Positions 292-39,804 of a DNA stretch of 39,804 bases are shown here, in pieces (the first letter of the stretch is position 1; the number at the start of each line of letters is the position of its first letter). Source of the DNA: a virus. The stretch is from the IMG/VR virus record IMGVR_UViG_3300005957_000052, positions 1 to 39,804 of that record. The stretch is one strand, 5' to 3'. A model generated the notes under the pieces. It searched no databases, was not told where the DNA came from, and worked only from the letters and a program-made list of their open reading frames with translations. A program made the position numbers and the translations under genes.

Positions 292-863
292 TGCTGGCGC
301 CGAAGCACACCCCGGAGCATCGGCACGCCTGGCCCACACCGGAGTCGGTCGCCAGCAAGCTCGGCCCGACGGTCGACCCCCAGGCGGACGCCTGGGCGTT
401 CGTCAAGGAGCGTTGCTCCTTCGGCCGCGAGGCGATGCTCGAGGCGTTCGTCGCCTTCCAGACGTTCCGAACGTGGGAGGTCGACCGCATGAGCGAGATT
501 CAGGCGTTCGCGCTGCACTTTGGGCGCGGTCGGAGGACGCTCTTCAAGTGGAAGTCGGCGTCGGGGTTCATTGACTCCGATCGGTCCCAGGCCATTCGGC
601 GAGGGGTCGCCGAAAGTGCACAAAGTGCACTTCGGACAGATACCGAACTTCCGGAACGATCCACCTGGCGGGCGTGCGGTCAGATGGACCTGCCCTTCGG
701 CGTCGGCTTCGTCGACGACCTTCAGCGCGCGGGCGAGAGCCTGATCGACGCGGCCCACCGCCTCGGCGAGCTGTCAGACGCCCACCGCCGCGCCTTCCGC
801 GCGAGCTGCCAGAGCGTGCGCGATCTGGTCGAGCGGTGCCTGGCGCTGGCGGGCGACTCGTGA
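288..863 (+). CDS. Hypothetical protein with a possible helix-turn-helix
   Basis: A 191-aa product; translation can begin at GTG 288 or at the adjacent ATG 291. Residues about 69-91 (EIQAFALHFGRGRRTLFKWK) have the look of a helix-turn-helix followed by the W-K seen at the end of recognition helices in excisionases and small terminases. The rest of the protein is helical, and the C-terminal part (RASCQSVRDLVERCLALAG) could pair as a helix. No family is recognised. Its TGA overlaps the GTG of the CsrA-like gene by four bases. A role as an early DNA-binding regulator or replication accessory is inferred from the motif and position only. Confidence 0.55.
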   Translation: MMLAPKHTPEHRHAWPTPESVASKLGPTVDPQADAWAFVKERCSFGREAMLEAFVAFQTFRTWEVDRMSEIQAFALHFGRGRRTLFKWKSASGFIDSDRSQAIRRGVAESAQSALRTDTELPERSTWRACGQMDLPFGVGFVDDLQRAGESLIDAAHRLGELSDAHRRAFRASCQSVRDLVERCLALAGDS

Positions 864-1096
864 GCGCCCCGGGCCAGGCGGGCGATCCCAGCGACCTCGG
901 ACGCCTGACGCTGACGAGGCGCGAGGGCGAGCGGATCGTGATCGAGACCGTCGACGGCATGGTGACGCTGCACGTCGGCAAGATGCAGAAGAACTCACAC
1001 GGTCGCGGTCGCGTGAGGATCGCCCTCGACGCGCCGAAGAGCGTGCGCATCGTGCGCGAGGAGCTGGTCGAGCCCGCCCGGAAGCGCACGGGCTGA
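860..1096 (+). CDS. csrA: CsrA-family RNA-binding translational regulator
   Basis: This 78-aa protein matches the CsrA/RsmA fold signature. After a 14-residue N-terminal extension it reads RLTLTRREGERIVI, equivalent to the conserved LILTRRVGE start of CsrA, and it continues to RIALDAPKSVRIVREEL (53-69), equivalent to the RIGV-APK-V-V-HREEI block. The arginines that contact RNA in CsrA (family R6/R7 and R44) are kept here as R20/R21 and R66. The strand 3-4 loop carries a longer basic insert (KMQKNSHGRGR). CsrA dimers bind GGA motifs in mRNA leaders and usually block ribosome access. The start is GTG 860, overlapping the upstream TGA; a longer upstream extension in this frame is an overlap artefact. 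The gene precedes the primase, so it is probably expressed early. Targets could be phage or host transcripts. Confidence 0.85.
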   Translation: MSAPGQAGDPSDLGRLTLTRREGERIVIETVDGMVTLHVGKMQKNSHGRGRVRIALDAPKSVRIVREELVEPARKRTG

Positions 1097-1121
1097 TCTC
1101 AGCAGCAGGGAGGGCTGCGGC

Positions 1122-3920
1122 GTGGGCTGGAAACACTTCCGGCGAGGGGTCGCGTGCCCCGTCTGCGGGGACGACAACGAGTGGTGCTCGGAGACCGACG
1201 ACGCGGCGCCCGGCGAGGCCGGCTACCGCGTGCGGTGCATGCGGGCGGACAGCGCTCCGGGCTGGACGAAGATCCCGTCCAAGGCTCGCCAGGGCGGCAC
1301 CTTCGTTCCGGACGGCGCTCCGCAGTCCTGCCCGGCCGACCGCGAGCGGATCGAGCGCGAGAAGCTCAAGGCCAGGAAGCAGAGCGACGACGCGAGGCAG
1401 CGCGCTCGCGAGCTGTACGCGGCCGCCAGGCCGCTTGAGCGCGGGGACCGGGCGAGCGAGTACCTCGCGTCTCGAGGCCTGAGCGTCCCGGGCGAGCTCG
1501 TTCCGTCGCTTCGCTTCGATCCCGCGTGCGACTATCGCCCGACGCCGGGCGCTCGAGACGCTTACGACCAGCGCGCCATGATCGCCGGCCGCCAGGGGTG
1601 GCCCGTCGAGAGCGACGGACGCCCCCGCAGCCGCCCGACCCCGTGCCTGGTGTGCGCCGCGACCGACCCCGAGACGGGTCGCGTCAGCGCCGTCCAGCGG
1701 ATCTACCTCCACCCGCGCGAGGGCGAGCGCGGCAAGCTGCCCATGCCCGACGCCAAGAAGATGCTCGGGAGGATGGATCACTCCGCCGTCCGTCTCATGC
1801 GCGAGGGCGCGCAGGGCGTCGCCGGCGAGATCGTCATCCTCTGCGAGGGCGTGGAGACGGGGCTCGCCCTCTGGCTGGCGACTGGGATGACCGTGTTCGC
1901 GTGCGTCTCGACGGCGGGCCTGCGCGACGTGCGGATGCCCAGCGGCCAGCGGCCGGCCAAGGTGATCATCGCCGCCGACCGCGACGCGTGGGACGAGCAG
2001 GGCCGATGCCACCCGGGGCTCGAGGCCGCGACGCGATGCGCCGCCCGCATGAGCGTGGTCTGCGGGGACGTCAAGATCGCGCTGCCCCCGATCCCCCAGG
2101 GTGTTCGGCTGGCCCGGCGGACGCCCGCCGCCGTCAAGAGCGTCGACTGGCTCGACGTCTACTCGAGCAGCGACTACGGGCCCGAGCGCGTTCGCGAGCT
2201 CGTCCTCGGCGCCTGCGTGGCCCCTGACGATGAGCGGATCGCGACCGCCCTTGCGCCGCCCGACGGCGTCCCGCCGGCTAAGGACGGCGCATCAGGGGGA
2301 GGGGGCGCCAAGGACGACGGACGCTACGTCGACGCGCGCCGCGTGTGGGTGCGAAAGAGCGACCCGATCGACCACGCCGAGCAGTTCCTCAGGACGCCGT
2401 TTCCACCGCGAAAAGACGAAACGTTTGTGCACCCCAGCGGCGCGCCGATGATTCGTCGCTTCGCCGAGACGTGGTGGCGCTACGACGGGCAGCGATACCG
2501 GATGATGAAGGACGAGAAGCTGCGCTCCCTCGCCCAGAACTTCCTGCGCTGGACGGTCGTCGCCAAGGGCAAGCCCGGCGAGGACGGTGAGTACGACTAC
2601 GAGCCCTTCGGCTCGAGTCCGACGCGCGCCGCTTCGCTCGTTCAGCACCTTGCCGGCGTGACGATGCTCGGCGGCCTCGGCGAGGAACCCGAGACGATGC
2701 CGCTCTGGATTCGCGCGACGGGCGAGCCCGACCGCGACGCGCCGCCGCCAGCCAACTGCATCGCGTTCGAGAACGGCATCCTCGACGTCGAGGCCTGGAG
2801 GCGGGGGGAGAAGCGACTGATGCCGCACTCGCCGGGGTGGTTCTGCACGGCGAGGCTCAACTACTGCCTGCCTGAGGACGCGCACCCGACCCGGTCGGAG
2901 CTCGCCTGGGAACGCGCGCCGATCTACCGGCGATTCATCGGGCAGGTGTTCGGCGAGGACACGTCTCGGGACGTTGACGACTTGCACGGGCTCGATCAGA
3001 TCGACCTGTGGCACGAGTGGATCGGGTACTGCATGGTGCCCGACTACAGCGTGCAGGCGGTGCTGGGCATCCAGGGCAACCCGGGCACGGGCAAGGGGAC
3101 GCTGATCCGGGTGTTTCGCAAGCTCTTCGGCGGCGATGATCAGGTCGCATCGACCTCGATGAGCGACCTGGGCGAGAAGTACGGCCTCGAGCCGCTTGTC
3201 GGCAAGCTGGTGGCGATCGACCCGGACGCCGAGTCGGCCTCGCACACGCAGTCCAGGGAGGGCGTCAGTCGGTTGAAGAAGATCAGCGGCGGCGACGCCG
3301 TGCAGGTGCGGCGCATGAGCGAAAAGAGCATCCCGAGCATCCAGCTGCCGGCGAGGTTCACGATCGTCTGCAACGAGCTGCCCTGGATGCCCGACTCGGG
3401 CGGGGCTCTGAAGCGCCGCTTTCGGTGGCTGCACACGCCTCGCCCCGTGCCCCCTGATGAGGTCGATGGCGACCTGGACGCCAAGCTCGCCAAGGAGCTC
3501 GGATGGATCGCCGTGCACGCGCTTGACGGACTCTCGAGGCTTCGGAACCGGATCGAGCGCGGCGGGCCCTCGCTCGTGACGCCGGAGGCGGCGAGGCACG
3601 TCGCCGAGCAGTTCACCGAGAAGACGGCGCCGCTGGCGGCCTTTGTGGAGGAGTGCCTGATCCGCTCGCCGGAGATGGAAGCCACGAAGGACGAGATGTA
3701 TCAGGCCTACCAGCGGTTCTGCGAGGCCGAGGGGATCACGAAGGGCCAGCTGGGCAAGCCTCGCTTCGGGGAGCTGCTGGCGATCGAGTGCCCGTGGATC
3801 GAGAGCGGGCGGATGGGCTCGACCGTCGAGGGGACGGGCAAGCGGCCCCGGCTTTGGCGCCACGTGAGAATCCGAGATGAGTGGCTGCCTCATGGTCGCG
3901 AGGCGTCCACGCCGCTGTAA
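1122..3920 (+). CDS. P4-type primase-helicase (zinc finger, TOPRIM, SF3 helicase)
   Basis: A 932-aa replication protein that should prime and unwind phage DNA. The N-terminus carries a zinc-binding domain (C12, C15, C22, C39), as in DnaG- and P4-type primases. A TOPRIM catalytic domain follows at about 230-330, with the CEGVETGLAL motif (E242) and the metal-binding AADRD motif at 284-288. A long linker leads to a D5/P4-type superfamily 3 helicase: Walker A GNPGTGKGT at 652-660 (K658), Walker B near VAIDPDAE, sensor-1 at TIVCNELPW, and basic ALKRRFRW as the arginine-finger region. Start GTG 1122 is preceded by a purine-rich ribosome site (GCAGGGAGGG). The length fits fused phage primase-helicases. 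No phage DNA polymerase is seen, so host polymerase is presumably recruited. Confidence 0.93.
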   Translation: MGWKHFRRGVACPVCGDDNEWCSETDDAAPGEAGYRVRCMRADSAPGWTKIPSKARQGGTFVPDGAPQSCPADRERIEREKLKARKQSDDARQRARELYAAARPLERGDRASEYLASRGLSVPGELVPSLRFDPACDYRPTPGARDAYDQRAMIAGRQGWPVESDGRPRSRPTPCLVCAATDPETGRVSAVQRIYLHPREGERGKLPMPDAKKMLGRMDHSAVRLMREGAQGVAGEIVILCEGVETGLALWLATGMTVFACVSTAGLRDVRMPSGQRPAKVIIAADRDAWDEQGRCHPGLEAATRCAARMSVVCGDVKIALPPIPQGVRLARRTPAAVKSVDWLDVYSSSDYGPERVRELVLGACVAPDDERIATALAPPDGVPPAKDGASGGGGAKDDGRYVDARRVWVRKSDPIDHAEQFLRTPFPPRKDETFVHPSGAPMIRRFAETWWRYDGQRYRMMKDEKLRSLAQNFLRWTVVAKGKPGEDGEYDYEPFGSSPTRAASLVQHLAGVTMLGGLGEEPETMPLWIRATGEPDRDAPPPANCIAFENGILDVEAWRRGEKRLMPHSPGWFCTARLNYCLPEDAHPTRSELAWERAPIYRRFIGQVFGEDTSRDVDDLHGLDQIDLWHEWIGYCMVPDYSVQAVLGIQGNPGTGKGTLIRVFRKLFGGDDQVASTSMSDLGEKYGLEPLVGKLVAIDPDAESASHTQSREGVSRLKKISGGDAVQVRRMSEKSIPSIQLPARFTIVCNELPWMPDSGGALKRRFRWLHTPRPVPPDEVDGDLDAKLAKELGWIAVHALDGLSRLRNRIERGGPSLVTPEAARHVAEQFTEKTAPLAAFVEECLIRSPEMEATKDEMYQAYQRFCEAEGITKGQLGKPRFGELLAIECPWIESGRMGSTVEGTGKRPRLWRHVRIRDEWLPHGREASTPL

Positions 3921-4824: not shown

Positions 4825-5210
4825 CGCCGCCTCCCGCCCCGACGATGACCTCGATCGTCGACGCCGTGTGCGAGTCGATCGGCCTGCGGCCCTCGCTCGT
4901 CTGGGCCTCGACGCCCACGCGCGGCAACGGCAAGAACGACCCGATCGTCATCGCCCGCCAGCTCGCCTGCCTGCTCGGCCGCGAGCTGACGCCGCTGACC
5001 TACGTCATGATCGCCGCCGGCACGGGCTACCGCACGGGACAGAGCGCGGTGCTCGCGGTTCGCCGCGCCCAGGAGCGCGTCCGCGGCGACGAGCCCCTGC
5101 TCGCGGTGGGCGACGGCCGCCTCTCCCTGACGACGACGCGGGCCGTCCTCGGCGGCGCCCGCCGCATCCTCGCCGCCCGCGGGCTGCGGGGAGAGGGGGC
5201 CGCCGCGTGA
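4821..5210 (+). CDS. DnaA domain IV-like DNA-binding protein
   Basis: A 129-aa protein whose residues about 10-90 resemble the DNA-binding domain IV of the replication initiator DnaA. An N-terminal helix (TSIVDAVCESIGLRPSLVWA) is followed by VIARQLACLLGRELTPLT at 43-60, equivalent to the DnaA block around R-x-R-Q-x-A-x-x-L. Then comes AAGTGYRTGQSAVLAVRRAQ, which takes the place of the signature GRDHTTV and its following helix. The DHT residues that read DnaA boxes are replaced by TGQ, so target specificity probably differs. There is no AAA+ domain, so it cannot be an ATP-driven initiator alone. The start ATG overlaps the upstream stop and its own stop overlaps the next GTG. It may mark or regulate the nearby origin-like region. 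Confidence 0.6.
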   Translation: MTPPPAPTMTSIVDAVCESIGLRPSLVWASTPTRGNGKNDPIVIARQLACLLGRELTPLTYVMIAAGTGYRTGQSAVLAVRRAQERVRGDEPLLAVGDGRLSLTTTRAVLGGARRILAARGLRGEGAAA

Positions 5211-6047: not shown

Positions 6048-6289
6048 ACCATTCCGTCTCCACCGCCGCCGGGACGACTACCGTGCGCTACGGGCGCCGC
6101 ATCGTCAGCATGCACGCGCTCGAGTGGCATCACTGGGCGCCGACGCCGCTGCTCAGGCGTCGGATGCTCCGCCGCCGCCGGCGCGTCCAGCGGCTCCCGC
6201 TCGGCGTGATCGGACAGCTCGAGGCGATCTTCGACCGAGAGGTCAGGCCGCTGACGCCCGCGCAGCGGAGAGATCGGGGCCTGGCGTGA
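6044..6289 (+). CDS. Small basic hypothetical protein (81 aa)
   Basis: An 81-aa, strongly basic product from GTG 6044, with an arginine cluster in the middle (LLRRRMLRRRRRVQRLPLG) and a C-terminus LTPAQRRDRGLA. No family is recognised. The charge suggests nucleic-acid contact. It overlaps the previous stop and the next GTG start by four bases each, which supports it as an expressed gene even though the sequence alone is unremarkable. Confidence 0.45.
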   Translation: MNHSVSTAAGTTTVRYGRRIVSMHALEWHHWAPTPLLRRRMLRRRRRVQRLPLGVIGQLEAIFDREVRPLTPAQRRDRGLA

Positions 6290-7254
6290 GCGCTTACCCC
6301 CCGATGAAGATCCGCGCGACGCTGCCGTACTTCGGCGGCAAGCGGGCGATGGCCAGCGACATCCTCGACCTGCTCTGCCCCGACGTCTCGGCCGTGCGGC
6401 AGTACTTCGAGCCCTTCCACGGGTCGCTCGCCGTTTTGCTCGAGCTGCGCGACCGCGGCTACGCGGGTCCGGCGGTCGTCAACGACCTGCACGAGCTGAC
6501 GCACAATCTCGCGACGGTCCTGTCGACCCCCGAGAGCGCCGCGGAGATTGCCGAGCGTCTGGCGGTCGGCCTCTGCCACGAGTCAGCGATGCGCGAAAGC
6601 GCGGCGTACATCGACACTCATCTCGGCGAGCGCGGCGACGGCAAGCTCGGGTTTCATTTCGGGCTCGCCTTCCACCACCTCCGCTTCTCCTGGCTCCACC
6701 GATCGGGCATGGCGGGGACGGAGATCGACTGGAGCGCCGTCGCCGGCGGATTCGCGGCTCGATGGACAAGCTCCGGCGGCGACCCCGCCGCCCGCTTCGC
6801 CGCGATGCGAGAGTCGATCCCCGGCTGGTGGTCTCGGATTCAGCGGACGACGTTCCTCTGCCGCGACGCGATCGACGTCCTGGCGAAGGTCCCCGACAAG
6901 CCCGGCGTCGCGATCTACCTCGACCCGCCCTACCTGCGCGGCTCGCGCTCCGGCGGCGAGTACGCCGTCGACTTCGAGGACGCGAGCGGCGGTCTGCGCG
7001 AGCACGAGGACGACCACGCTCGCCTCGCCGCGGCTGCGCGGCGGTTCGGGAACGCCCGCGTCGCCGTGAGCTACTACGACGACGAGCGGCTCGCGCGCCT
7101 GTACCCCGAGCGCGACGGCTGGCGCGCCGCCGCCCTGGCGAGAAACCGCAACCTGAGCAACGCGCGGCAGGGCTCCGAGGGCGCCGATTCGCCCGAGGTC
7201 CTGGTGTGCAACTTTGAGCTGCCCCAGGCGGCAGAGAGCGAGCGTGAATCGTGA
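6286..7254 (+). CDS. dam: DNA N6-adenine methyltransferase, D12/Dam class
   Basis: A 322-aa enzyme that should transfer a methyl group from S-adenosylmethionine to adenine N6 in DNA. Motif I is seen as LPYFGGKR at about 13-20, the form typical of the D12/Dam class, and the catalytic motif IV is DPPY at 213-216, in the context IYLDPPYLRGSR. A target-recognition insert lies between them. The length is slightly above E. coli Dam (278 aa). Start GTG 6286 overlaps the upstream stop; ATG 6304 is an alternative. No cognate restriction enzyme is recognisable nearby, so it is probably an orphan methylase used to protect phage DNA or to tune replication or transcription. Its stop overlaps the GTG of the next gene. 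Confidence 0.9.
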   Translation: MSAYPPMKIRATLPYFGGKRAMASDILDLLCPDVSAVRQYFEPFHGSLAVLLELRDRGYAGPAVVNDLHELTHNLATVLSTPESAAEIAERLAVGLCHESAMRESAAYIDTHLGERGDGKLGFHFGLAFHHLRFSWLHRSGMAGTEIDWSAVAGGFAARWTSSGGDPAARFAAMRESIPGWWSRIQRTTFLCRDAIDVLAKVPDKPGVAIYLDPPYLRGSRSGGEYAVDFEDASGGLREHEDDHARLAAAARRFGNARVAVSYYDDERLARLYPERDGWRAAALARNRNLSNARQGSEGADSPEVLVCNFELPQAAESERES

Positions 7255-8243
7255 ACGAAACGAAGAACATCTCCCCCCTCATCGCCGCCGCGCTGCCCAA
7301 GCGCGAGCCCGAAAGCGCGCCGTCCGGCCTCGACGTCAACCGCGGCGCGCACCTGTCCATCAACACCAAGCCCCACCGCGCGAACAAGCGGATGCGCTCC
7401 CTGACCGGCGAGCAGTACCGCGAGGTGCTCGAACGCCGCGCCGACCTCGCCCGCGAGTCCGGGTTTGGGAGGCTGCTCCTGTTTGAGCCGGGCTCTCGCG
7501 ACTTTCGCGACCGCTTCGATCGGTCGCGAGCGGTCAGGCCGCTGAATCAGGCTTCCACTCTCGCCGCAGGGCACTGCGCGGCAATCGAAGCGTTCATCCG
7601 CGACGAAAACGAACTCGACGACGGCGTAGAGGTCGACGTGTACGTCTCGACGTTCAACCGCTGGGGCTGCGACGAACCGCCGGGCGCCACCGAGGCGTGG
7701 ATCGACGAGACCCTTGCTTGGTCTATGACCGGCGTTCGCGTCCTCTACATCGACGCCAGCGGGTACAACGCCGGCGACCACAACATCACCCGCGTCGGCG
7801 ACGAAAAACGCCCCGACCACTTCGGCGGCGGGCGACGCCTCGACGGGCTCGCGATGCTCAACCGGGCCATCGACTCGCTCGAGGTCTCCATCGTCTGCGG
7901 GGGCGAGCCGTTTCCGGGGATCAACGAAGACCAGTCGCTCGCGCCCTACGCCTGCTCGCTGCTCCAGAACATCGCCAAACGCGTGAGGCGAGGCGAGGAG
8001 TCGCTCGTCGGCGCGATCCGGATCGCAGTCGCCTCAGGCCACGAGCGGCACGTTTTCGTGCGATCTATCGAGGAGTTCGAGGAGTTCGCGCACGCGGCCC
8101 ACGTCGCCGCCCAGGCCGGGGCGCTTTTCTCGGTCTGGCACGCCGACGAGCAACTCGTCGCCGCGGCGACGGAGCACAACGCCATCTCGCACGCCGCGCG
8201 GGCGAAGCTGCGCGAGGCCGCGAAGGAGGGCGTGACCGCATGA
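7251..8243 (+). CDS. Unknown 330-aa protein downstream of the adenine methylase
   Basis: A soluble-looking 330-aa protein with ordinary composition and alternating strand/helix character, so it is probably a folded enzyme or binding protein. I cannot assign a family. Segments worth noting are VDVYVSTFNRWGCDEPPG near 125-142, SGYNAGDHNITRVGDEKRPD near 170-189, and SIVCGGEPFPGINEDQ in the second half. Its start GTG 7251 overlaps the methylase stop by four bases, so the two are likely co-translated and possibly functionally linked, for example in DNA modification or its control. That link is inference from adjacency. Confidence 0.6.
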   Translation: MNETKNISPLIAAALPKREPESAPSGLDVNRGAHLSINTKPHRANKRMRSLTGEQYREVLERRADLARESGFGRLLLFEPGSRDFRDRFDRSRAVRPLNQASTLAAGHCAAIEAFIRDENELDDGVEVDVYVSTFNRWGCDEPPGATEAWIDETLAWSMTGVRVLYIDASGYNAGDHNITRVGDEKRPDHFGGGRRLDGLAMLNRAIDSLEVSIVCGGEPFPGINEDQSLAPYACSLLQNIAKRVRRGEESLVGAIRIAVASGHERHVFVRSIEEFEEFAHAAHVAAQAGALFSVWHADEQLVAAATEHNAISHAARAKLREAAKEGVTA

Positions 8244-8614
8244 ACCCCGCCGTCATGACTGTCGTCCTGCTAGGCGAGCCCTCGATGCAGGGCTACCCCG
8301 TCCTCACCGCGCCCGTCGTCAGCGTCGCCGAGCACGAGATCGCCACGCTTACCGGCGAGACCGAGCTGCACCGCGTCTACCACGTCGACGCCGAGCGGGC
8401 GCGCTCGCACCGCTGGCCGGGGCCGCCGTTTGAGCTTCCCGCGAGCGCCGACCTCGACGCCGACCTCGACGGCGACGGCGACGTCGACCTCGCCGACTTC
8501 GACCGCCTGGTCGATGCGCTCGGCGGCGGAAGCCCCGCGATGGTCGCCCGCGTCGTCGGCGCCTGGCGAGAGCCGGGCGAGGGCGGCGAGTCGGAGGAGG
8601 CGCTCGAGCGATGA
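8240..8614 (+). CDS. Hypothetical protein with one dockerin-type calcium-binding repeat
   Basis: A 124-aa product. Residues 75-95 read DLDGDGDVDLADFDRLVDAL, matching the dockerin type I / EF-hand-like loop D-x-D-x-D-G-x-V-x-x-x-D followed by its F-helix. Only one repeat is present, while cellulosomal dockerins have two; single repeats are common in large extracellular proteins of several environmental phyla. The N-terminal 65 residues (starting NPAVMTVVLLGEPSMQGYPV) have no recognised family and no clear signal peptide. The protein could bind a cohesin-like partner or calcium. The ATG overlaps the upstream TGA and the stop overlaps the next ATG. Confidence 0.6.
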   Translation: MNPAVMTVVLLGEPSMQGYPVLTAPVVSVAEHEIATLTGETELHRVYHVDAERARSHRWPGPPFELPASADLDADLDGDGDVDLADFDRLVDALGGGSPAMVARVVGAWREPGEGGESEEALER

Positions 8615-10308: not shown

Positions 10309-13300
10309 ATGCCCGTTCGCACCGCCCGCGTCTTCTCGGAGGTCTTCGGCGCCGTCGCCTCGCACACGGTCGAGGCCCTCGACCTGCGCTGCGCCGGCCC
10401 CGATTCGCTCCTGCTCGTCTTCGTCGGCAACGACAACAACAGCGTCGACGTCGACAGCGTCACCTTCGGCGGGCAGAGCCTCTCCCGCCTGTCGAGCTCG
10501 AGCGTGCCCGCCCAGATCTTCGAGCGCGGCACCGTCTTCTACCGCGTCAACCCGACATCCGCGCCCGTCGGCGACCTCGTCGTCACCTTCGGCGGCGAGA
10601 TCGGCAGCGGCGGCGGCTTCGTGGCGGTGGTCACGAAGACCGGCGTGCTGCCGTCGTGGTCGCATTCGCCCCTGAACTTCGTCACCGAGATCGGCACGGG
10701 CGGCGCGACCTCGCTCGAGATCGAGCTGACCGGCGCCGAGAAGGGCGACGGGCTCGTCGCGTTCACCGTGCTCGGCTTCGGCGGCGGCGGTCCGGTCAGC
10801 TCGACGAACCGCTTCTCCACGCTCCCGCTCGTGCTCGACATCCGCGCCGAGGAGGGCAACGACGACAAGCAGGGCTACGTGCTGGACGGCCACGCCCTCG
10901 AGGCGGGCGACCAGACGGTGCGGCTCGAGTGGACGAGCGGCGCCCGCGGCTACATGCAGGCGCTCCTCGTGTCCGCCGCCCCCGCGGCGGACGCGTCCGA
11001 TCGCAAGCGCTGGGCCTTCGACGGCGGCGTTTTGGTCGAGTCCAGCGCCCCCGCGCTGCCCGAGTTCGTCGGCGGCGCGGCGACCAAAGACGGCCTCTTC
11101 CGGCCCGTCGGCGCCGGCGCGGGCCGCTACGGCGCTCGACTCGGCGTCAGCGCGCCGGCGCTCGCCCCGCAGACCTACCGCTCGTCGACCGCCACCGCCC
11201 AGACGCGCGAGTTCGGCAGCGAGCAGGGCGGGCTGCGCTTCCTCGCGGCGTACAACGACGCCACCGGCGGCGTCTCGGGCCTCATCATCGGCGAGCCCGC
11301 GTCCGCCGCGACGCAGGTCGCGCTCCGCCAGCGCATCCCCGACGCCGTCGCCGACGAGGACGGCGTCTACGACGGCCCCGAGGGCTACCTGCGATTCCTG
11401 GAAGGCGGCTGGAACTTCGGAGACCAGGGCACGGACACCTACACCACGATCGGCGCCCGCTTCGTCGACGGCCTCCTCGTGGCGATGCTGAGAAAGACCA
11501 ACGCCGACGGCGACGGCGTGGGCCTCGTCTCGCTCGTTTTGCCCAAGGACGCCGCGGACGTCGCGGACTACGACGGCGCGGGCTGGGGCGACGAGGGCGC
11601 GATCGAGCTGACCGTCGCCGACAACGTCGACGAGCCCGTCAACTTCGACGAGCGGGCCTACGACTACGACGACCCCGCCGGCGACGGCTCGCGCGACCCG
11701 ATCACGATCGCCGCGCGCGAGTGGGCGGACCCTCCGAACACCTACACCCCCGACCGCGAGGCCGCGGGCGACGATCTGCTCGAGTGGTGGGTCTGCTGCA
11801 ACGACTACCCCTCGTCGGACGGGGCGAACCCTGTCGGCGGGCGCGCGTACGTCAAGCGGTTCACGCGCGCCTCGACCAGCGGCCCCTGGTCGCGCGGCGG
11901 CCTCGTGATCGCCTTCGAGCTGCCGATCAACGAGTTCAAGCACCTCCAGGGCGCCGGGCTCGTCTGGAAGGGTGATGACCCTGTCCTGATTGCCTCGCGC
12001 GGCGACACCGAGGACGCCAACGAGGTCATCGTGCGCCGCATCGCGGACGTCGACAACTACGACTCCGCCGACTGGTCGGCCGGGATCAACGCCGCCAACG
12101 ACGCCTGGGACGCCGCGATCCGCCAGGCCCAGGGCCACGCCGAGCTCGTCGGCGGACCGGTCATCAGCGCGCTCGGCTACCAGTTCGTGGGCTGCGCGCC
12201 CGACGGAGACCCGGCGTACCTTCTGTGCGGCACGGATCACCAGACCCCGCAGATCGCCCGCGCGACCGTCGTGGACAACGACGTCGACGGCGGGCCGCCG
12301 CTGATCGTTCGCTTCGAGCCCTCGGGGCTCCGCAACCAGCCCGCGGGCCACGTCCGCGTCAGCACGGGCGAGGAGGTGTTCTGCATCGCCAACTTCGACG
12401 CCTTCCGGGGCGGGCCGATCGCCGCGTCGATCTACCCCAACTTCGGGTCGCTCGACACCGACGAGTTCCCGGAGAACGAGGCCGAGGCGCTCGACAAGTT
12501 CGGGCGTCTCTGGTGGTCAACCGACGGCGGCCGCTCGTGGGCGCACACGCACGCGGGCGTCTTCAGCCACGAGATCAGCGACCGGAGCCTCTCGGTCCTG
12601 AGCGGGCTGGTCTCCCGCCCCAAGCCGCGGCGTCTCAACCGCGCGCAGGAGAACACCGCCGTCGCGGCGGTGCCGCCGGTGGTCTTCGGGCGGCCGCTCC
12701 TGGTCGCCCCCGGCGCCGAGAACCTCGCCGTCTCGGAGTTCACCGTCGGCACGATCGCGACGGGCGCGACCGTGCAGGTGCTCGCAAACGCCTCGGCCGC
12801 CGTCATCACCCCCGAGCAGGTCCCCGCGAACCTGCGCCCGCTGCCCGCGTCGGGTCCGCTCGTCGAGATCCTCGTCGACGGCGACTACGCCGAGGGGGAC
12901 ATCCGCATTAAGCCCACGAATGTCGCGGCGGTCGCCGGCGCGGCCTACGCGGGCCGGTTCTGGGTCGCGAACGTCCGCGAGTTCTCGAACCTCGAGGCCG
13001 ACGACGAGGCGCTCGGGCAGTGGATCGGCGCCGCCGTCGACGCGCGCGACGTCAACAGCACGCAGGAGCAGTCGATCGGCGGCGGCGGCAACATCCTCTC
13101 GGACGCCTGGTACGGCGTCGACATGGTGTCGGTCAACGACGACCCGCTCACGATCGACGACGTGGTCTGGCGCATCGGCCGCGACGCATCGACGACCAAC
13201 CAGCGCCTCCGATTCCTGCTCCAGCTCGACGGGTTCTGGGCGGTCAACTACCCCGGCGTGCAGACGGCGCCCCCCGGCTCGACCTCGACCGCCCGCCGCG

Positions 13301-14262
13301 TGCGCGTGCCGCTCGCGGACCTGGGCTCGACGTGGACGATCGGGGCGGCGCTCGCGATCGGCGAGCTCGGCGCCGACCGCTACACCGCCTACGACGCGGG
13401 CGTCGAGGACGAGTACCCGCTGCTCGCCCTGACCGGCGGCGCGGCGACGATCACCGCGACCTGGCACAGCGAGGACAACGCCGTGACGGTGACGGACGGC
13501 ACGAACAGCGTCGAGATCGAGCTTCCGGTCTGGCCGCTCCGCACCTCGGGCATCCTGATCGGGCTCAAGAAGATCTCCGCGACGGCGCTCCAGGTCGGTG
13601 TCAGCGTCGCGGGCGCCGAGCCGGTCTTCGGCGTGCTGACCCTCGCGGCGGACGTGACGCCTACGGCGATCGAGACGCCCGAGGGCGTCAACACCGAGAT
13701 CGGCCACGTCGCGGGCTTCGTGGCCCCGACGACGCTCGAGCCCGGCCTCGGCTGGCTCGAGGATCTCGACGTCAGCGGTCTTGAGAACGTCGACCAGACC
13801 GCCCCCACGCCGTCGGGCGCGACGATCGAGCGGACGGACGGCGGCTTCGCCGGCGGCTTTGACTCCAGCGAGCAACTCGGCACGACGCCGGACTCGATCG
13901 TCGCGCAGCTCACGGCGCCCGTGACCGGCAACACCGAACTCAGACGCGAGGACTTCGCGGAGGTCGACAACGGAGACGGGACCTGGTCCTACGAGTTTGA
14001 GCAAGCGGTCGCCGACCCCGCCCAGGGCGTGTGGACGTTCCGGCTGACCGCCTGCCGCGACACCGCGGGCAACATGAGCCTCCAGGTGCTGACGGCGCAG
14101 ACGACGGTGGGCTCGGCGCCGACGACCGCCGACCCGGCGGATCGCTACCTGCCGGCGAAGCGGGGCTCCGGAACGCCTCGGGACTTCGGCCATCACTTCG
14201 TCGGCGACCCGCTGCCCAAGCGGCCCGGCGGCGAGCCGCGCGATCCGGCGCCGCGCCTGTAG
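10309..14262 (+). CDS. Large multidomain virion protein, likely receptor- or glycan-binding
   Basis: A 1317-aa protein, the largest in the window, rich in Gly, Asp, Ala and Val with beta-strand periodicity throughout. The N-terminal 220 residues form one beta domain (VTFGGQSLSRL, VVTFGGEIGSG). The central part contains WWSTDGGRSW at about 735-744, a textbook Asp-box (S-x-D-x-G-x-x-W) of sialidase-like beta-propellers, with other propeller-like text around 480-780. The region about 1161-1260 (DQTAPTPSGATIERT onward) resembles an Ig-like domain. There is no signal peptide, which fits a virion part better than a secreted enzyme. The likely role is a tail fibre, spike or head decoration that binds cell-surface glycans. 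Its position before the terminase genes is unusual. Enzymatic activity cannot be judged. Confidence 0.65.
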   Translation: MPVRTARVFSEVFGAVASHTVEALDLRCAGPDSLLLVFVGNDNNSVDVDSVTFGGQSLSRLSSSSVPAQIFERGTVFYRVNPTSAPVGDLVVTFGGEIGSGGGFVAVVTKTGVLPSWSHSPLNFVTEIGTGGATSLEIELTGAEKGDGLVAFTVLGFGGGGPVSSTNRFSTLPLVLDIRAEEGNDDKQGYVLDGHALEAGDQTVRLEWTSGARGYMQALLVSAAPAADASDRKRWAFDGGVLVESSAPALPEFVGGAATKDGLFRPVGAGAGRYGARLGVSAPALAPQTYRSSTATAQTREFGSEQGGLRFLAAYNDATGGVSGLIIGEPASAATQVALRQRIPDAVADEDGVYDGPEGYLRFLEGGWNFGDQGTDTYTTIGARFVDGLLVAMLRKTNADGDGVGLVSLVLPKDAADVADYDGAGWGDEGAIELTVADNVDEPVNFDERAYDYDDPAGDGSRDPITIAAREWADPPNTYTPDREAAGDDLLEWWVCCNDYPSSDGANPVGGRAYVKRFTRASTSGPWSRGGLVIAFELPINEFKHLQGAGLVWKGDDPVLIASRGDTEDANEVIVRRIADVDNYDSADWSAGINAANDAWDAAIRQAQGHAELVGGPVISALGYQFVGCAPDGDPAYLLCGTDHQTPQIARATVVDNDVDGGPPLIVRFEPSGLRNQPAGHVRVSTGEEVFCIANFDAFRGGPIAASIYPNFGSLDTDEFPENEAEALDKFGRLWWSTDGGRSWAHTHAGVFSHEISDRSLSVLSGLVSRPKPRRLNRAQENTAVAAVPPVVFGRPLLVAPGAENLAVSEFTVGTIATGATVQVLANASAAVITPEQVPANLRPLPASGPLVEILVDGDYAEGDIRIKPTNVAAVAGAAYAGRFWVANVREFSNLEADDEALGQWIGAAVDARDVNSTQEQSIGGGGNILSDAWYGVDMVSVNDDPLTIDDVVWRIGRDASTTNQRLRFLLQLDGFWAVNYPGVQTAPPGSTSTARRVRVPLADLGSTWTIGAALAIGELGADRYTAYDAGVEDEYPLLALTGGAATITATWHSEDNAVTVTDGTNSVEIELPVWPLRTSGILIGLKKISATALQVGVSVAGAEPVFGVLTLAADVTPTAIETPEGVNTEIGHVAGFVAPTTLEPGLGWLEDLDVSGLENVDQTAPTPSGATIERTDGGFAGGFDSSEQLGTTPDSIVAQLTAPVTGNTELRREDFAEVDNGDGTWSYEFEQAVADPAQGVWTFRLTACRDTAGNMSLQVLTAQTTVGSAPTTADPADRYLPAKRGSGTPRDFGHHFVGDPLPKRPGGEPRDPAPRL

Positions 14263-37200: not shown

Positions 37201-37827
37201 GGCGTGCAGACGCGGCTGCTGGTCCGCGCCGTCGACCCGACGGGGCGGCCGAGCCTCGGCTTCACGGCCGCCGCGCACACGGCGCCGACGCCCGACGGCG
37301 AGACGGTCGTCGCATCGGAGGACTTCGACCTCTCGGACGTCGGCTCCGATCCCGAGGAGGGGTACGAGAACCTGACCTGGAACGCCTCGCTCTCGCGGCT
37401 GGAGGCGACGGACCCGGGCGCGGCGTGGTCGTACACCTCGCCGCTGGTCGAGCTCGGCGAGACCGCCGAGCCTCGCCGCCTGCGGGCCCGCGCGCTCGCG
37501 CAGCAGGACCCCGAGGACGCGACGCTCGACGAGGCGACCTTCCAGGGCACAAGCGCGGAGGCGGACCAGTGGCGGGTCGGCAGCTCGGCGGTCGGGGGCG
37601 AGCTGCGGCTCTTCGCGCCGCCCGCGCCCGCGAGCGCGGTGGATCTGCGGCTCTTCGTCCGCTGGCGCGACGCGGGCTCGGGCGAGCTGACGGCGTGGAC
37701 GCTGCTCGAGCACCTCGGCGAGATCACGGCGACGACGACCGAGGCGCAGCTGCGCGTGGAGGGCTCGCGCTCGCGGTTCCCCTACGCCCTCGCGCTGACC
37801 GAGGCGCGCCTCGTGGCGACGGGCTAG
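34255..37827 (+). CDS. Tail tip attachment protein, gpI/gpJ-like fusion
   Basis: An 1190-aa protein that should form the central tail tip and contact the receptor. Residues 1-80 are a beta-grasp (ThiS/MoaD-like) domain ending LADGDRAYLAPSPGDP, followed by a membrane-like helix at 85-108 (INVVLAVIAIASAVASVLLL). Together these correspond to lambda gpI fused to the front of the protein. The gpJ-like hub follows, with DRYSRDAVAGDPIHVALGRR near 123-142, LALLTNARWGCGSQFGLDAV near 450, and GERMEALEALRMICRAGRAT near 505. Two fibronectin III-like domains lie at about 802-905 and 911-1015, and a C-terminal beta domain ends the protein. Start GTG 34255 overlaps the peptidase stop. Its TAG shares CTAG with the convergent minus-strand gene. 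Confidence 0.88.
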   Translation: MTATGTRTITVLLETSRDPLTLEGRSFERLELPEGATLADAARAAGIGGRLVAQLNGAIVRPADLERRRLADGDRAYLAPSPGDPINVVLAVIAIASAVASVLLLPKIGRLDNQRGERRYLFDRYSRDAVAGDPIHVALGRRVRHGGRVISVVPFSGPAGESKMRILIDLGHGEVARIGDQTADFDRLSPGPGGAGQIAGVYLNDQPAENFSGVLVWGRTGHADQAVIPGFGDTQVVREVGVGGVVLRNTSGAERTGDSASAEAQLFTTSTGGGGVDALVLRFRFARGLYDLASSGRPNVRTVKYRWRFKPALSPTYSDWTVETITRAEQSPFFAERRVDGLDPDDGEIDVQVERVSPEAPESQKVDEITFDSVIETTYSQNRYVYDTGDGGNALLALEITAGEELSGDTPRVSVELDGVKVRRWDRSSAADASDPWEEDFGFSDNPGDLALALLTNARWGCGSQFGLDAVDLESLFAWIEWCEEDVDRYDGGGVRPRFRFSYTLGERMEALEALRMICRAGRATPANVGGKWRFILNRPQLIAREVFTERSIADGDDALQVRYELTTGGLTVPNRLVAEIEDAAQDGEANTIAFPETAADALIAGEVARDEVVQLDGVTDADQALAELIHLWKRLRLERVSVELVTTHEYVRLLPGERFDLATSVVGYGEASGVLRADSTAGVLRFEGLPDLDSEATYEATVIMADSSAVTREVESFDQSEGYTELTLASDLPAAPPVDAEFALHSAPLKPFICERVELDDEESLTWRIVGREMNDDVHDDTPSAPPPPPVYGTIRGRSVPPGPVLDLVAQLEADSGGAPRVRLSWRQDPVDASRTAQFSVYRRAQGDMDWRLQPPRVETNAALVGDIDEGASEEFAVVAVSPDGVQLSPQAAAQAVFGVTTESGGAVDPVGAPDGISIDDAGDGQTLTIERVEGATRYHVEILEGETSAIGDEHIRSFIARTVPQPGAGDPTLTGLRLLPGVQTRLLVRAVDPTGRPSLGFTAAAHTAPTPDGETVVASEDFDLSDVGSDPEEGYENLTWNASLSRLEATDPGAAWSYTSPLVELGETAEPRRLRARALAQQDPEDATLDEATFQGTSAEADQWRVGSSAVGGELRLFAPPAPASAVDLRLFVRWRDAGSGELTAWTLLEHLGEITATTTEAQLRVEGSRSRFPYALALTEARLVATG

Positions 37828-38036
37828 TCGATAAGGCCGAGGCGCTTGTCCAAAGCGATGGCGACGCGGTGAGCGGTCTGAACGGTGATCGTCGTCTTCA
37901 CGCCGCGAAGATAGCTCGATAGGTCCGGTCGGCTGACGCCCGCGCGGCGGGCGACGGCGCTGACCCCGCCTGCGGCCTCAATGAGCCGCGCGAGCTCGGC
38001 GCGGATGGGGTCGGCGTCGGCGGGGAGATCGGGCAC
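37824..38036 (-). CDS. Xre/Cro-type helix-turn-helix protein, repressor candidate
   Basis: A 70-aa minus-strand protein. Residues 23-45 (GGVSAVARRAGVSRPDLSSY then LRG) are a clear Cro/C1-type helix-turn-helix, followed by TVQTAHRVAIALDKRLGL, the usual last two helices of that fold. No further domain is present, so it is Cro-sized or antitoxin-sized. GTG 38036 is chosen because AGGGG lies 7 bases upstream on that strand; the frame is open further back but has a different composition. It lies 4 bases after the 101-aa gene and downstream of a good promoter. With the integrase it forms the only minus-strand block, so an immunity or lysogeny switch function is likely. A toxin-antitoxin reading is the alternative. 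Confidence 0.72.
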   Translation of the reverse strand: MPDLPADADPIRAELARLIEAAGGVSAVARRAGVSRPDLSSYLRGVKTTITVQTAHRVAIALDKRLGLID

Positions 38037-38040
38037 GCGG

Positions 38041-38346
38041 CTACCCCTGAGCGCGAGCCCGGCACGCGTCGGCGGCCAGGACGCAGGCCTCAAAGTCGCT
38101 CGGCCCAAGGGACTCGCGCGACGCCGGGCGCCAGGGGCAATGCGACTCGTCGAGCACCTCGTAGGTCTCGCCGTCGTTGGTGCGGATGACGACAAGGTGT
38201 TGAGGGTGCGTGCAGACCTCGACGCGACCGTAGCGCGTGCCCTGGCTGTTCGTCGCGTAAACCGCCATCCCGTCGTGAAGGCCGAACCGCGCGGCCGTCG
38301 AAATCGCCTGCTGGTATGTGATCTGGTCATGGGTAAGCGTCGTCAT
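38041..38346 (-). CDS. Unknown 101-aa protein paired with the HTH gene
   Basis: A 101-aa minus-strand protein from ATG 38346, with ribosome site AAGGA 9 bases upstream and a promoter at 38389-38416. The N-terminal helix (TTLTHDQITYQQAISTAARF) precedes a compact strand-rich core: GMAVYATNSQGTRYGRVEV, HLVVIRTNDGETYEVLDES. Four cysteines (45, 70, 88, 94) are not arranged as a zinc finger. No family is recognised. Its stop is 4 bases before the HTH start, so the two are one operon, as in regulator pairs or toxin-antitoxin pairs. Composition is less GC-rich than its surroundings, a sign of separate origin. Confidence 0.55.
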   Translation of the reverse strand: MTTLTHDQITYQQAISTAARFGLHDGMAVYATNSQGTRYGRVEVCTHPQHLVVIRTNDGETYEVLDESHCPWRPASRESLGPSDFEACVLAADACRARAQG

Positions 38347-38469: not shown

Positions 38470-39804
38470 TCAGCAGTGCCGCGCCGCGAAGGCGAGTCGC
38501 TCGTCGATGCTCGGGTCGATGTACCCGAGCGTCGTGCGGGCGCTCGTGTGGCGGAGCTGCCGCATCACGTCCTCGAGCGAGACGTCCGGGCGGCGCTCGA
38601 GCCGCGTCGCCCCCGCGTGCCGGAGCTGGTAGGGGCTGAAGCGCGGCACGCCGAGGGCCTCGCACCGGGCGGCGATGATCTTCGCGTAGCGATCGGGCGC
38701 GTAGTGGGGGAGCGCCCGCCCCGGCCGGCGGCTCCACGGGCGGGGGTCGAAGACGTAGGGGCGGCCGTCGCCCTTGGCCTCGTCGAGCCACGGCCGAAGC
38801 GCCCGCCAGCACCGCGGCCCGAGGAGCACCGGCGTCGGGCGCTCGCCCGCCCGGGCGACCTTGTCGGCCGCGGCGTCGGGGACGTAGACGTGCACGCCGG
38901 GCAGGTCCGCCGGGACGACGAGCTCGGGCCGCATGAGGCACACCTCCGCCGGACGCATAGCCGATCGCTGCTGGAGGGCGATCATCGCCGCGACGGCGAC
39001 GTGCTCGCCTGAGGCCCGCAGGGCCCGCCTGACGCACACGACGCTCCGGCGGTCGGCTGGGGCCCTCACCGCCCCGGCGCGGATCTCGGGGCCGCCTGGA
39101 CGCCCTCGGCGGCCCGCTCGCGACGGGAGGACGTCGTCGGCGGCGCCGGGGACGTGGCCCTCGCTCGCCGCCCAGCGGAGCATGTAGCGGGCGCGACCGA
39201 GGTAGCGGTTGATCGTGCCAGCGGTGTAGCGGCTGACGCGCTCGCCGCGAGGGCGGGCCGGGTCGTCGGGCTTGGTTTGCCCCTCGAGCCGCCGGCGGAA
39301 CGCGGCGAGCTCGCGAGCGCCGACCGCGGCCGCGGGCGTGGCGGCGAGCCCCGGCGTCGCGAGCAGGGCGGCCATCGCCGAGCGGTCCATGGGGTAGGTG
39401 CCCGTCTGCTTCCCGCCCTTGCGGTAGGTGTCCCGCGACCAGTCGAGGAACGCGGCGACGACCGCGGCGAGCGTCGGTCCGTCAGGCGCGGCAGCGGGCG
39501 CCGGGCCGGGGCGGGGCGCCTCCTCGCCCGCTTTGAAGGCGGCGTGCACCGCGTCGTCCCAGACGTAGCCCCTCGCCCGCCAGAGCGAGAGCGCCCGGAT
39601 GTAGTTGTCGAGGGCGTCGGGCGTGCCCTCTCGGCCGAGGTAGATCGCCCATCGCCGGCCGCTCGAGGAGAGGCGGATTCGGGCTTGCGATTCGCCCCGA
39701 ATCAGGAAAGCCTCGGGTCGCGGGAGGGCGCGGAAGGGCGGCGCTGGTCTAGTCGGATGGTCTAGCGACCCCGCGGGATTCGCCGTTCTTCGCGTCTGCC
39801 TCAT
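38470..39804 (-). CDS. int: Tyrosine recombinase (phage integrase)
   Basis: A 444-aa protein on the minus strand; the frame begins at the last base of the window, so a start further out is possible. The N-terminal part has an SAM-like core-binding domain around 108-215 (PTLAAVVAAFLDWSRDTYRK; RYTAGTINRYLGRARYMLRW). The catalytic domain shows the first arginine in QQRSAMRPAEVCLM (about 280-293), then box II as FSPYQLRHAGATRL, where the usual H-x-x-R is Y-x-x-R. It closes with QLRHTSARTTLGYID, carrying the second histidine and the nucleophilic tyrosine. It integrates the phage at an attB that is not in view. No excisionase is recognised. Some environmental integrases share the Y-for-H change, so activity is plausible. 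Confidence 0.9.
   Translation of the reverse strand: MRQTRRTANPAGSLDHPTRPAPPFRALPRPEAFLIRGESQARIRLSSSGRRWAIYLGREGTPDALDNYIRALSLWRARGYVWDDAVHAAFKAGEEAPRPGPAPAAAPDGPTLAAVVAAFLDWSRDTYRKGGKQTGTYPMDRSAMAALLATPGLAATPAAAVGARELAAFRRRLEGQTKPDDPARPRGERVSRYTAGTINRYLGRARYMLRWAASEGHVPGAADDVLPSRAGRRGRPGGPEIRAGAVRAPADRRSVVCVRRALRASGEHVAVAAMIALQQRSAMRPAEVCLMRPELVVPADLPGVHVYVPDAAADKVARAGERPTPVLLGPRCWRALRPWLDEAKGDGRPYVFDPRPWSRRPGRALPHYAPDRYAKIIAARCEALGVPRFSPYQLRHAGATRLERRPDVSLEDVMRQLRHTSARTTLGYIDPSIDERLAFAARHC

Follow-up and report, generated by a model that had tools for sequence, protein, structure and literature searches.

CsrA proteins possess a five-stranded fold and form an interlocked, strand-swapped dimer. 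The RNA-contact residues of E. coli CsrA are located in strands β1 and β5 (L4, R6, R7, V42 and R44, with R6, R7 and R44 as the RNA-contact arginines), and the consensus core of the sites to which CsrA binds is A(N)GGA. Genes of this family also occur on mobile elements: a survey from 2020 reported csrA in 30 phages among 2,517 and on 161 of 20,668 plasmids (PMC7366521). In the temperate phage JC1, csrA is a 'moron' gene whose product may be packaged (PMC9144972), while CRISPRi-ART knockdown of the csrA homologue of phage PTXU04 gave smaller plaques (2025; PMC11879866). RsmQ, encoded on plasmid pQBR103, is a global host regulator (PMC9928087), and host Rsm is known to control CRISPR-Cas systems (PMC8450108). 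In view of the survey and the JC1 and PTXU04 reports, the statement in a preliminary description of the DNA studied here that a role of CsrA in temperate phage biology is poorly described overstated the novelty; phage-borne csrA is already known, and the gene discussed below is a diverged example.

The gene is encoded on a viral contig of 39,804 nucleotides (IMG/VR record IMGVR_UViG_3300005957_000052, hereafter the window), of which the main features are listed in Table 1. Judged from its sequence, the 78-residue product belongs to the CsrA family, as the preliminary description had proposed. Pfam family PF02599 (CsrA) matches residues 16-72 with an E-value of 1.5e-10 and a score of 41.3 bits, clearly above the gathering score of 27, and PHROG 9500, annotated as 'CsrA-like regulator', matches with an E-value of 1.3e-5. 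A profile built from relatives retrieves the solved chains of CsrA, RsmE, RsmF and RsmN (E 3e-26 to 2e-12). This is the sole CsrA match across the contig.

Table 1. Features of the csrA region and of the lysogeny region of the window
Feature	Position	Strand	Basis or remark
Upstream ORF, 191 aa	288..863	+	Overlaps csrA start (GTGA)
csrA-like gene, 78 aa, GTG start	860..1096	+	PF02599 and phrog_9500 matches
14-residue N-terminal extension	860..901	+	Start-codon scan and alignment with E. coli CsrA; low model confidence
First RNA-contact segment LTLTRREGE (R20, R21 = E. coli R6, R7)	905..931	+	No variation among 30 aligned CsrAs
Basic stretch VGKMQKNSHGRGRV, residues 39-52, holding the 5-residue β3-β4 insert	974..1015	+	Alignment; model strands 34-44 and 50-57
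Second RNA-contact segment APKSVRIVREEL (R66 = E. coli R44)	1031..1066	+	A58, P59, R66 and E68 (nearly) invariant
Hairpin GCAGC-AGGGAGG-GCTGC, a candidate CsrA site whose loop contains the primase Shine-Dalgarno	1102..1118	+	Sequence, folds, stem count
Primase-helicase, 932 aa, directly 3' of csrA	1122..3920	+	DUF7146, Toprim_3, DUF5906; phrog_864 E 1.8e-41
HTH repressor-like gene	37824..38330	-	HTH_3, phrog_4268
Tyrosine-type phage integrase	38470..39804	-	phrog_1 E 3e-20; supports temperate lifestyle

DNA with 73% GC, the value for this contig, gives frequent long open frames on all strands, and positions 860-1096 might be such a chance frame and no gene. This is extremely improbable given the profile E-value, the preservation of both RNA-contact segments and the tight fit between two neighbours, and the PF02599 match led us to reject it. 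The composition of csrA (GC 71%, GC3 92%) is similar to that of the adjoining genes and thus gives no sign of recent import. Its GTG start and the stop codon (TGA) of the preceding ORF overlap as GTGA, and 25 nt separate its stop from the start of the primase-helicase gene, in agreement with the earlier remark that csrA adjoins a primase. No homology was found between the upstream ORF and the upstream genes at two other viral csrA loci, L036 and L015.

Sequence alignment showed that both segments involved in RNA binding by CsrA are retained. The window equivalents of E. coli L4, R6, R7, V42 and R44 are L18, R20, R21, I64 (a conservative replacement) and R66, and among the positions that do not vary across 30 aligned CsrAs are L16, L18, R20, R21, G23, P59, R66 and E68. 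The protein shares the family profile, the RNA-contact arginines and the predicted β core with bacterial CsrA, RsmA and RsmE, from which it differs by strong divergence, an N-terminal extension and two inserts. Relative to E. coli CsrA, the protein is extended by 14 residues ahead of the M1 position and has three extra residues before β3 and five between β3 and β4. Since ATG, GTG and TTG are absent between the GTG start and the CsrA core, the extension is real, barring a non-standard start codon; the alignment with the E. coli protein bears out its length as originally described. The basic loop insert was likewise recognized correctly, as residues 39-52 comprise five K/R/H and no D/E. Over the span of the profile the net insert is +8, and it is 0 in 40 of the 43 tabulated Myxococcota CsrA spans.

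Inserts also occur elsewhere in the family. The IMG/VR sequences with an H-G-R loop (L008, L012-L017 and L021) resemble the window protein in their LTRREGE start motif and in having csrA a short distance ahead of a gene for DNA metabolism, but their insert in the β3-β4 region is +4, they lack the N-terminal extension and the neighbour is Sak4. RsmN/RsmF of Pseudomonas aeruginosa, another CsrA homologue, likewise contains an insertion and has the motif LSRREGE; its insertion is of about 16 residues and located between β2 and β3, and the RsmN-like phage copies such as L042, L048 and L053 have a similar one (+16 to +18), whereas the additions in the window protein are +3 before β3 and +5 between β3 and β4. 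The window protein is thus not of the RsmN/RsmF type. Tailed, often temperate phages such as the F116-like Pseudomonas phages (RsmM type) and VvAW1 carry csrA in their early recombination region (PMC7366521), but the window neighbour is a primase-helicase, and a tblastn search of INPHARED with the window CsrA gave no match even at an E-value of 1. Gp28 of the Escherichia phage PTXU04 is similarly phage-borne and, within the literature covered, the sole phage CsrA with a tested phage phenotype (PMC11879866), but its gene is found where the lysis cassette ends. RsmQ is comparable as a CsrA homologue on a mobile element, in this case a plasmid, for which global host regulation has been shown (PMC9928087). 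The csrA contig of the window is clearly of phage origin, with terminase, portal, capsid, tail and integrase genes.

The AlphaFold monomer, obtained with a 30-sequence alignment (mean pLDDT 79.6), shows strands at residues 25-29, 34-44 and 50-57, corresponding to β2-β4, and the start of a helix from residue 67, with low confidence at both ends; an earlier model built from four sequences was poor (pLDDT 63.6) and was discarded. A Foldseek search with the monomer model retrieved no CsrA, a result that we regard as uninformative because the query was a monomer and CsrA is a strand-swapped dimer. In a tree calculated on 63 columns the branching was not resolved, including the relation of the window CsrA to the H-G-R-loop family, and the window sequence is on a long branch (5.48). 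This branch length, the two inserts with the extension and the moderate confidence of the monomer model would fit a diverged or partly degenerate CsrA that has lost binding of GGA hairpins and has another role, for example binding of host CsrA or a structural one; the JC1 protein, for which one peptide suggests packaging in the virion (PMC9144972), points the same way. However, both RNA-contact segments are intact with their arginines, the frame is open and its codon use resembles that of the neighbours, and we consider such a loss of function improbable.

The gene content of the contig is that of a lambda-like temperate siphophage, with genes for terminase subunits, a portal protein, a head protease, a major capsid protein, a tape measure protein, tail protein J, an HTH repressor and an integrase; the last two support the temperate lifestyle that had been suggested. 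Both ends of the record, positions 1 and 39804, are exact gene starts (of ORF 1-291 and of the integrase gene 38470-39804), as if the record were a piece cut at gene boundaries out of a longer contig, which would make it a predicted provirus. A pattern scan of IMG/VR with the primase or TerL revealed no close phage relatives. Matches to TerL were only about 34% identical and present in 3 of 141 Myxococcota genomes. Host-directed genome scans returned six loci, of which at least four are chromosomal csrA genes adjoining flagellar genes.

Scanning of IMG/VR with alignments of viral CsrAs gave 20 and then 39 loci, found through similarity to the window protein. Of 21 viral lineages, which were grouped by eye, about 13 have csrA next to or overlapping a gene for replication or recombination, the partners across lineages being primase, Sak4, RecE-like, Bet/YqaJ, Erf, RusA and SSB. 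Among the 14 records with a strong Sak4 match, 13 have csrA just upstream on the same strand, with 24 to 558 bp between the matches; by csrA sequence the Sak4-linked records form five lineages. Sak4 is the neighbour in L011, L002, L041 (which also has RusA), L015 and L022. In L037, 2 nt separate csrA from the RecE-like exonuclease gene that follows it. Further neighbours are Erf (L018), an exonuclease (L027), Bet and YqaJ (L026), a single-strand binding protein and a RecA-dependent nuclease (L050), a primase (L052), a recombination-associated exonuclease (L051) and a helicase (L040). In L036, csrA lies 4 nt upstream of a gene for an 829-aa protein, the N-terminus of which aligns with that of the window primase at 33% identity over 63 residues (E 3e-4) and in which Toprim-like and P-loop stretches are discernible by eye; no profile scored over the cut-offs, so the primase label was not adopted and the locus was counted as a weak case. 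The annotated phages fit this picture in part: F116, phi297 and VvAW1 also have csrA within the early recombination region, but in PTXU04 it belongs to the lysis cassette and in JC1 it is found between the portal and capsid genes (PMC9144972).

The remaining lineages, about 8 of the 21, have other neighbours (CI-like repressors, BstA, unassigned regions). The gene following csrA in L042 (5337-6278) gives a match to phrog_6287, the BstA abortive-infection family (E 2.8e-92). CI-like repressors precede csrA in other RsmN-like phage copies, and this amounts to a second, immunity-type setting for phage csrA. Several copies can occur together: the L042 record has two csrA-like matches about 1 kb apart, and G026 (L048) and G033 (L057) have four each, of which three are RsmN-like with the long insertion and lie close together. 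A record labelled Acinetobacter phage (L034, CAKLQH020000034.1) shows bacterial chromosome around csrA (alaS, aspartokinase, rnhB); counts of phage csrA in public records may therefore be inflated.

The junction between csrA and the primase-helicase gene (1097-1122, TCTCAGCAGCAGGGAGGGCTGCGGCG) contains a perfect 5-bp stem in which GCAGC (1102-1106) pairs with GCTGC (1114-1118). The loop AGGGAGG includes the Shine-Dalgarno sequence of the primase gene as well as AGGGA, which is the layout of a CsrA site. Among the 20 starts in the window with GGA at the Shine-Dalgarno position, this is the sole one with a perfect 5-bp stem. The p-value for this is about 0.02-0.05, shuffling of the flanks giving 0.022; an equal stem is found at 4-5% of all GGA triplets in the GC-rich window. 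The hairpin forms in folds of 27 and 48 nt, a longer helix wins in a fold of 91 nt, and at none of these three lengths does the fold energy beat that of the shuffled sequences. The primase leader is a reasonable candidate for a CsrA site, not a demonstrated one. Autoregulation of viral csrA genes through Shine-Dalgarno hairpins was also considered and rejected, as these occur at 5 of 24 viral csrA genes and at 31 of 161 control starts (p 0.52). Inspection of the other lineages revealed no conserved hairpin ahead of the partner gene.

The shortness of the csrA-primase gap and the overlap of the csrA start with the preceding ORF (GTGA) suggest coupled expression. We propose that the window gene encodes a divergent CsrA-type RNA-binding protein that would be expressed together with the early replication operon and tune its own operon, with effects on the host possible in addition; we hold this proposal to be evenly balanced between right and wrong. 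The phage CsrA would most likely act as a dimer and bind A(N)GGA hairpins in 5' leaders, altering translation. Its nearest target would probably be its own operon, notably the primase-helicase gene with the Shine-Dalgarno sequence in a GGA-loop hairpin, and host transcripts may also be bound. What the analysis shows directly is membership of the family, retention of the RNA-contact residues, the order of the genes and the sequence of the hairpin; we infer co-expression, dimerization, RNA binding and the target, and likewise the sign of regulation.

Phage CsrA is usually discussed as host-manipulating, and a function in host takeover or lysogenic conversion has to be weighed for the window protein as well. 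The preliminary description had raised reprogramming of host translation and timing of late phage genes as possible roles. The phage CsrA would then compete with or override host CsrA and alter host translation (metabolism, motility, defence), the early-operon position merely ensuring early expression, by analogy with plasmid RsmQ. The action of RsmQ as a global host regulator (PMC9928087), the control of CRISPR-Cas systems by host Rsm (PMC8450108) and the retained RNA-contact residues are all in agreement with this. Host takeover on its own, however, would not lead one to expect csrA to be linked repeatedly to recombination and replication genes, and we consider it rather unlikely. The occurrence of this linkage in unrelated phages suggests that csrA serves the phage's own DNA module and is not solely directed at the host, and directs attention to that module first; the alternative is that early regions merely accumulate accessory genes.

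Extending control of the phage's own module beyond the window, we tentatively suggest that across unrelated phages CsrA may be coupled to an adjoining primase, Sak4 or RecE-type gene and set its translation, a generalization that is more doubtful than the proposal for the window operon. If true, phage csrA would be a recurrent regulatory partner of replication and recombination modules, providing post-transcriptional control of phage DNA metabolism. A search for papers in which CsrA and Sak4 appear together, covering few subscription papers, found none, which is weak evidence of novelty, and one further combination of literature terms gave nothing. The recurrent neighbourhood is a more interesting lead than the window gene alone, and because the csrA-primase junction is short and contains a candidate hairpin, the idea of own-module control lends itself to a direct reporter test.

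Some other genes of the window may be mentioned. A 1317-aa open frame (10309-14262) without a Pfam match precedes the terminase genes. ORF 8240-8614 carries DADLDGDGDVDLADFDRLVDALGG, by eye a dockerin-like calcium-binding motif, also without a Pfam match; dockerin-like motifs are common in Planctomycetota. The small gene at 4827-5210 has a weak match to the C-terminal, DNA-binding domain of DnaA (E 3.6e-5, under the curated cut-off), and 6124-7254 encodes a D12-class adenine DNA methyltransferase (E 1.3e-12).
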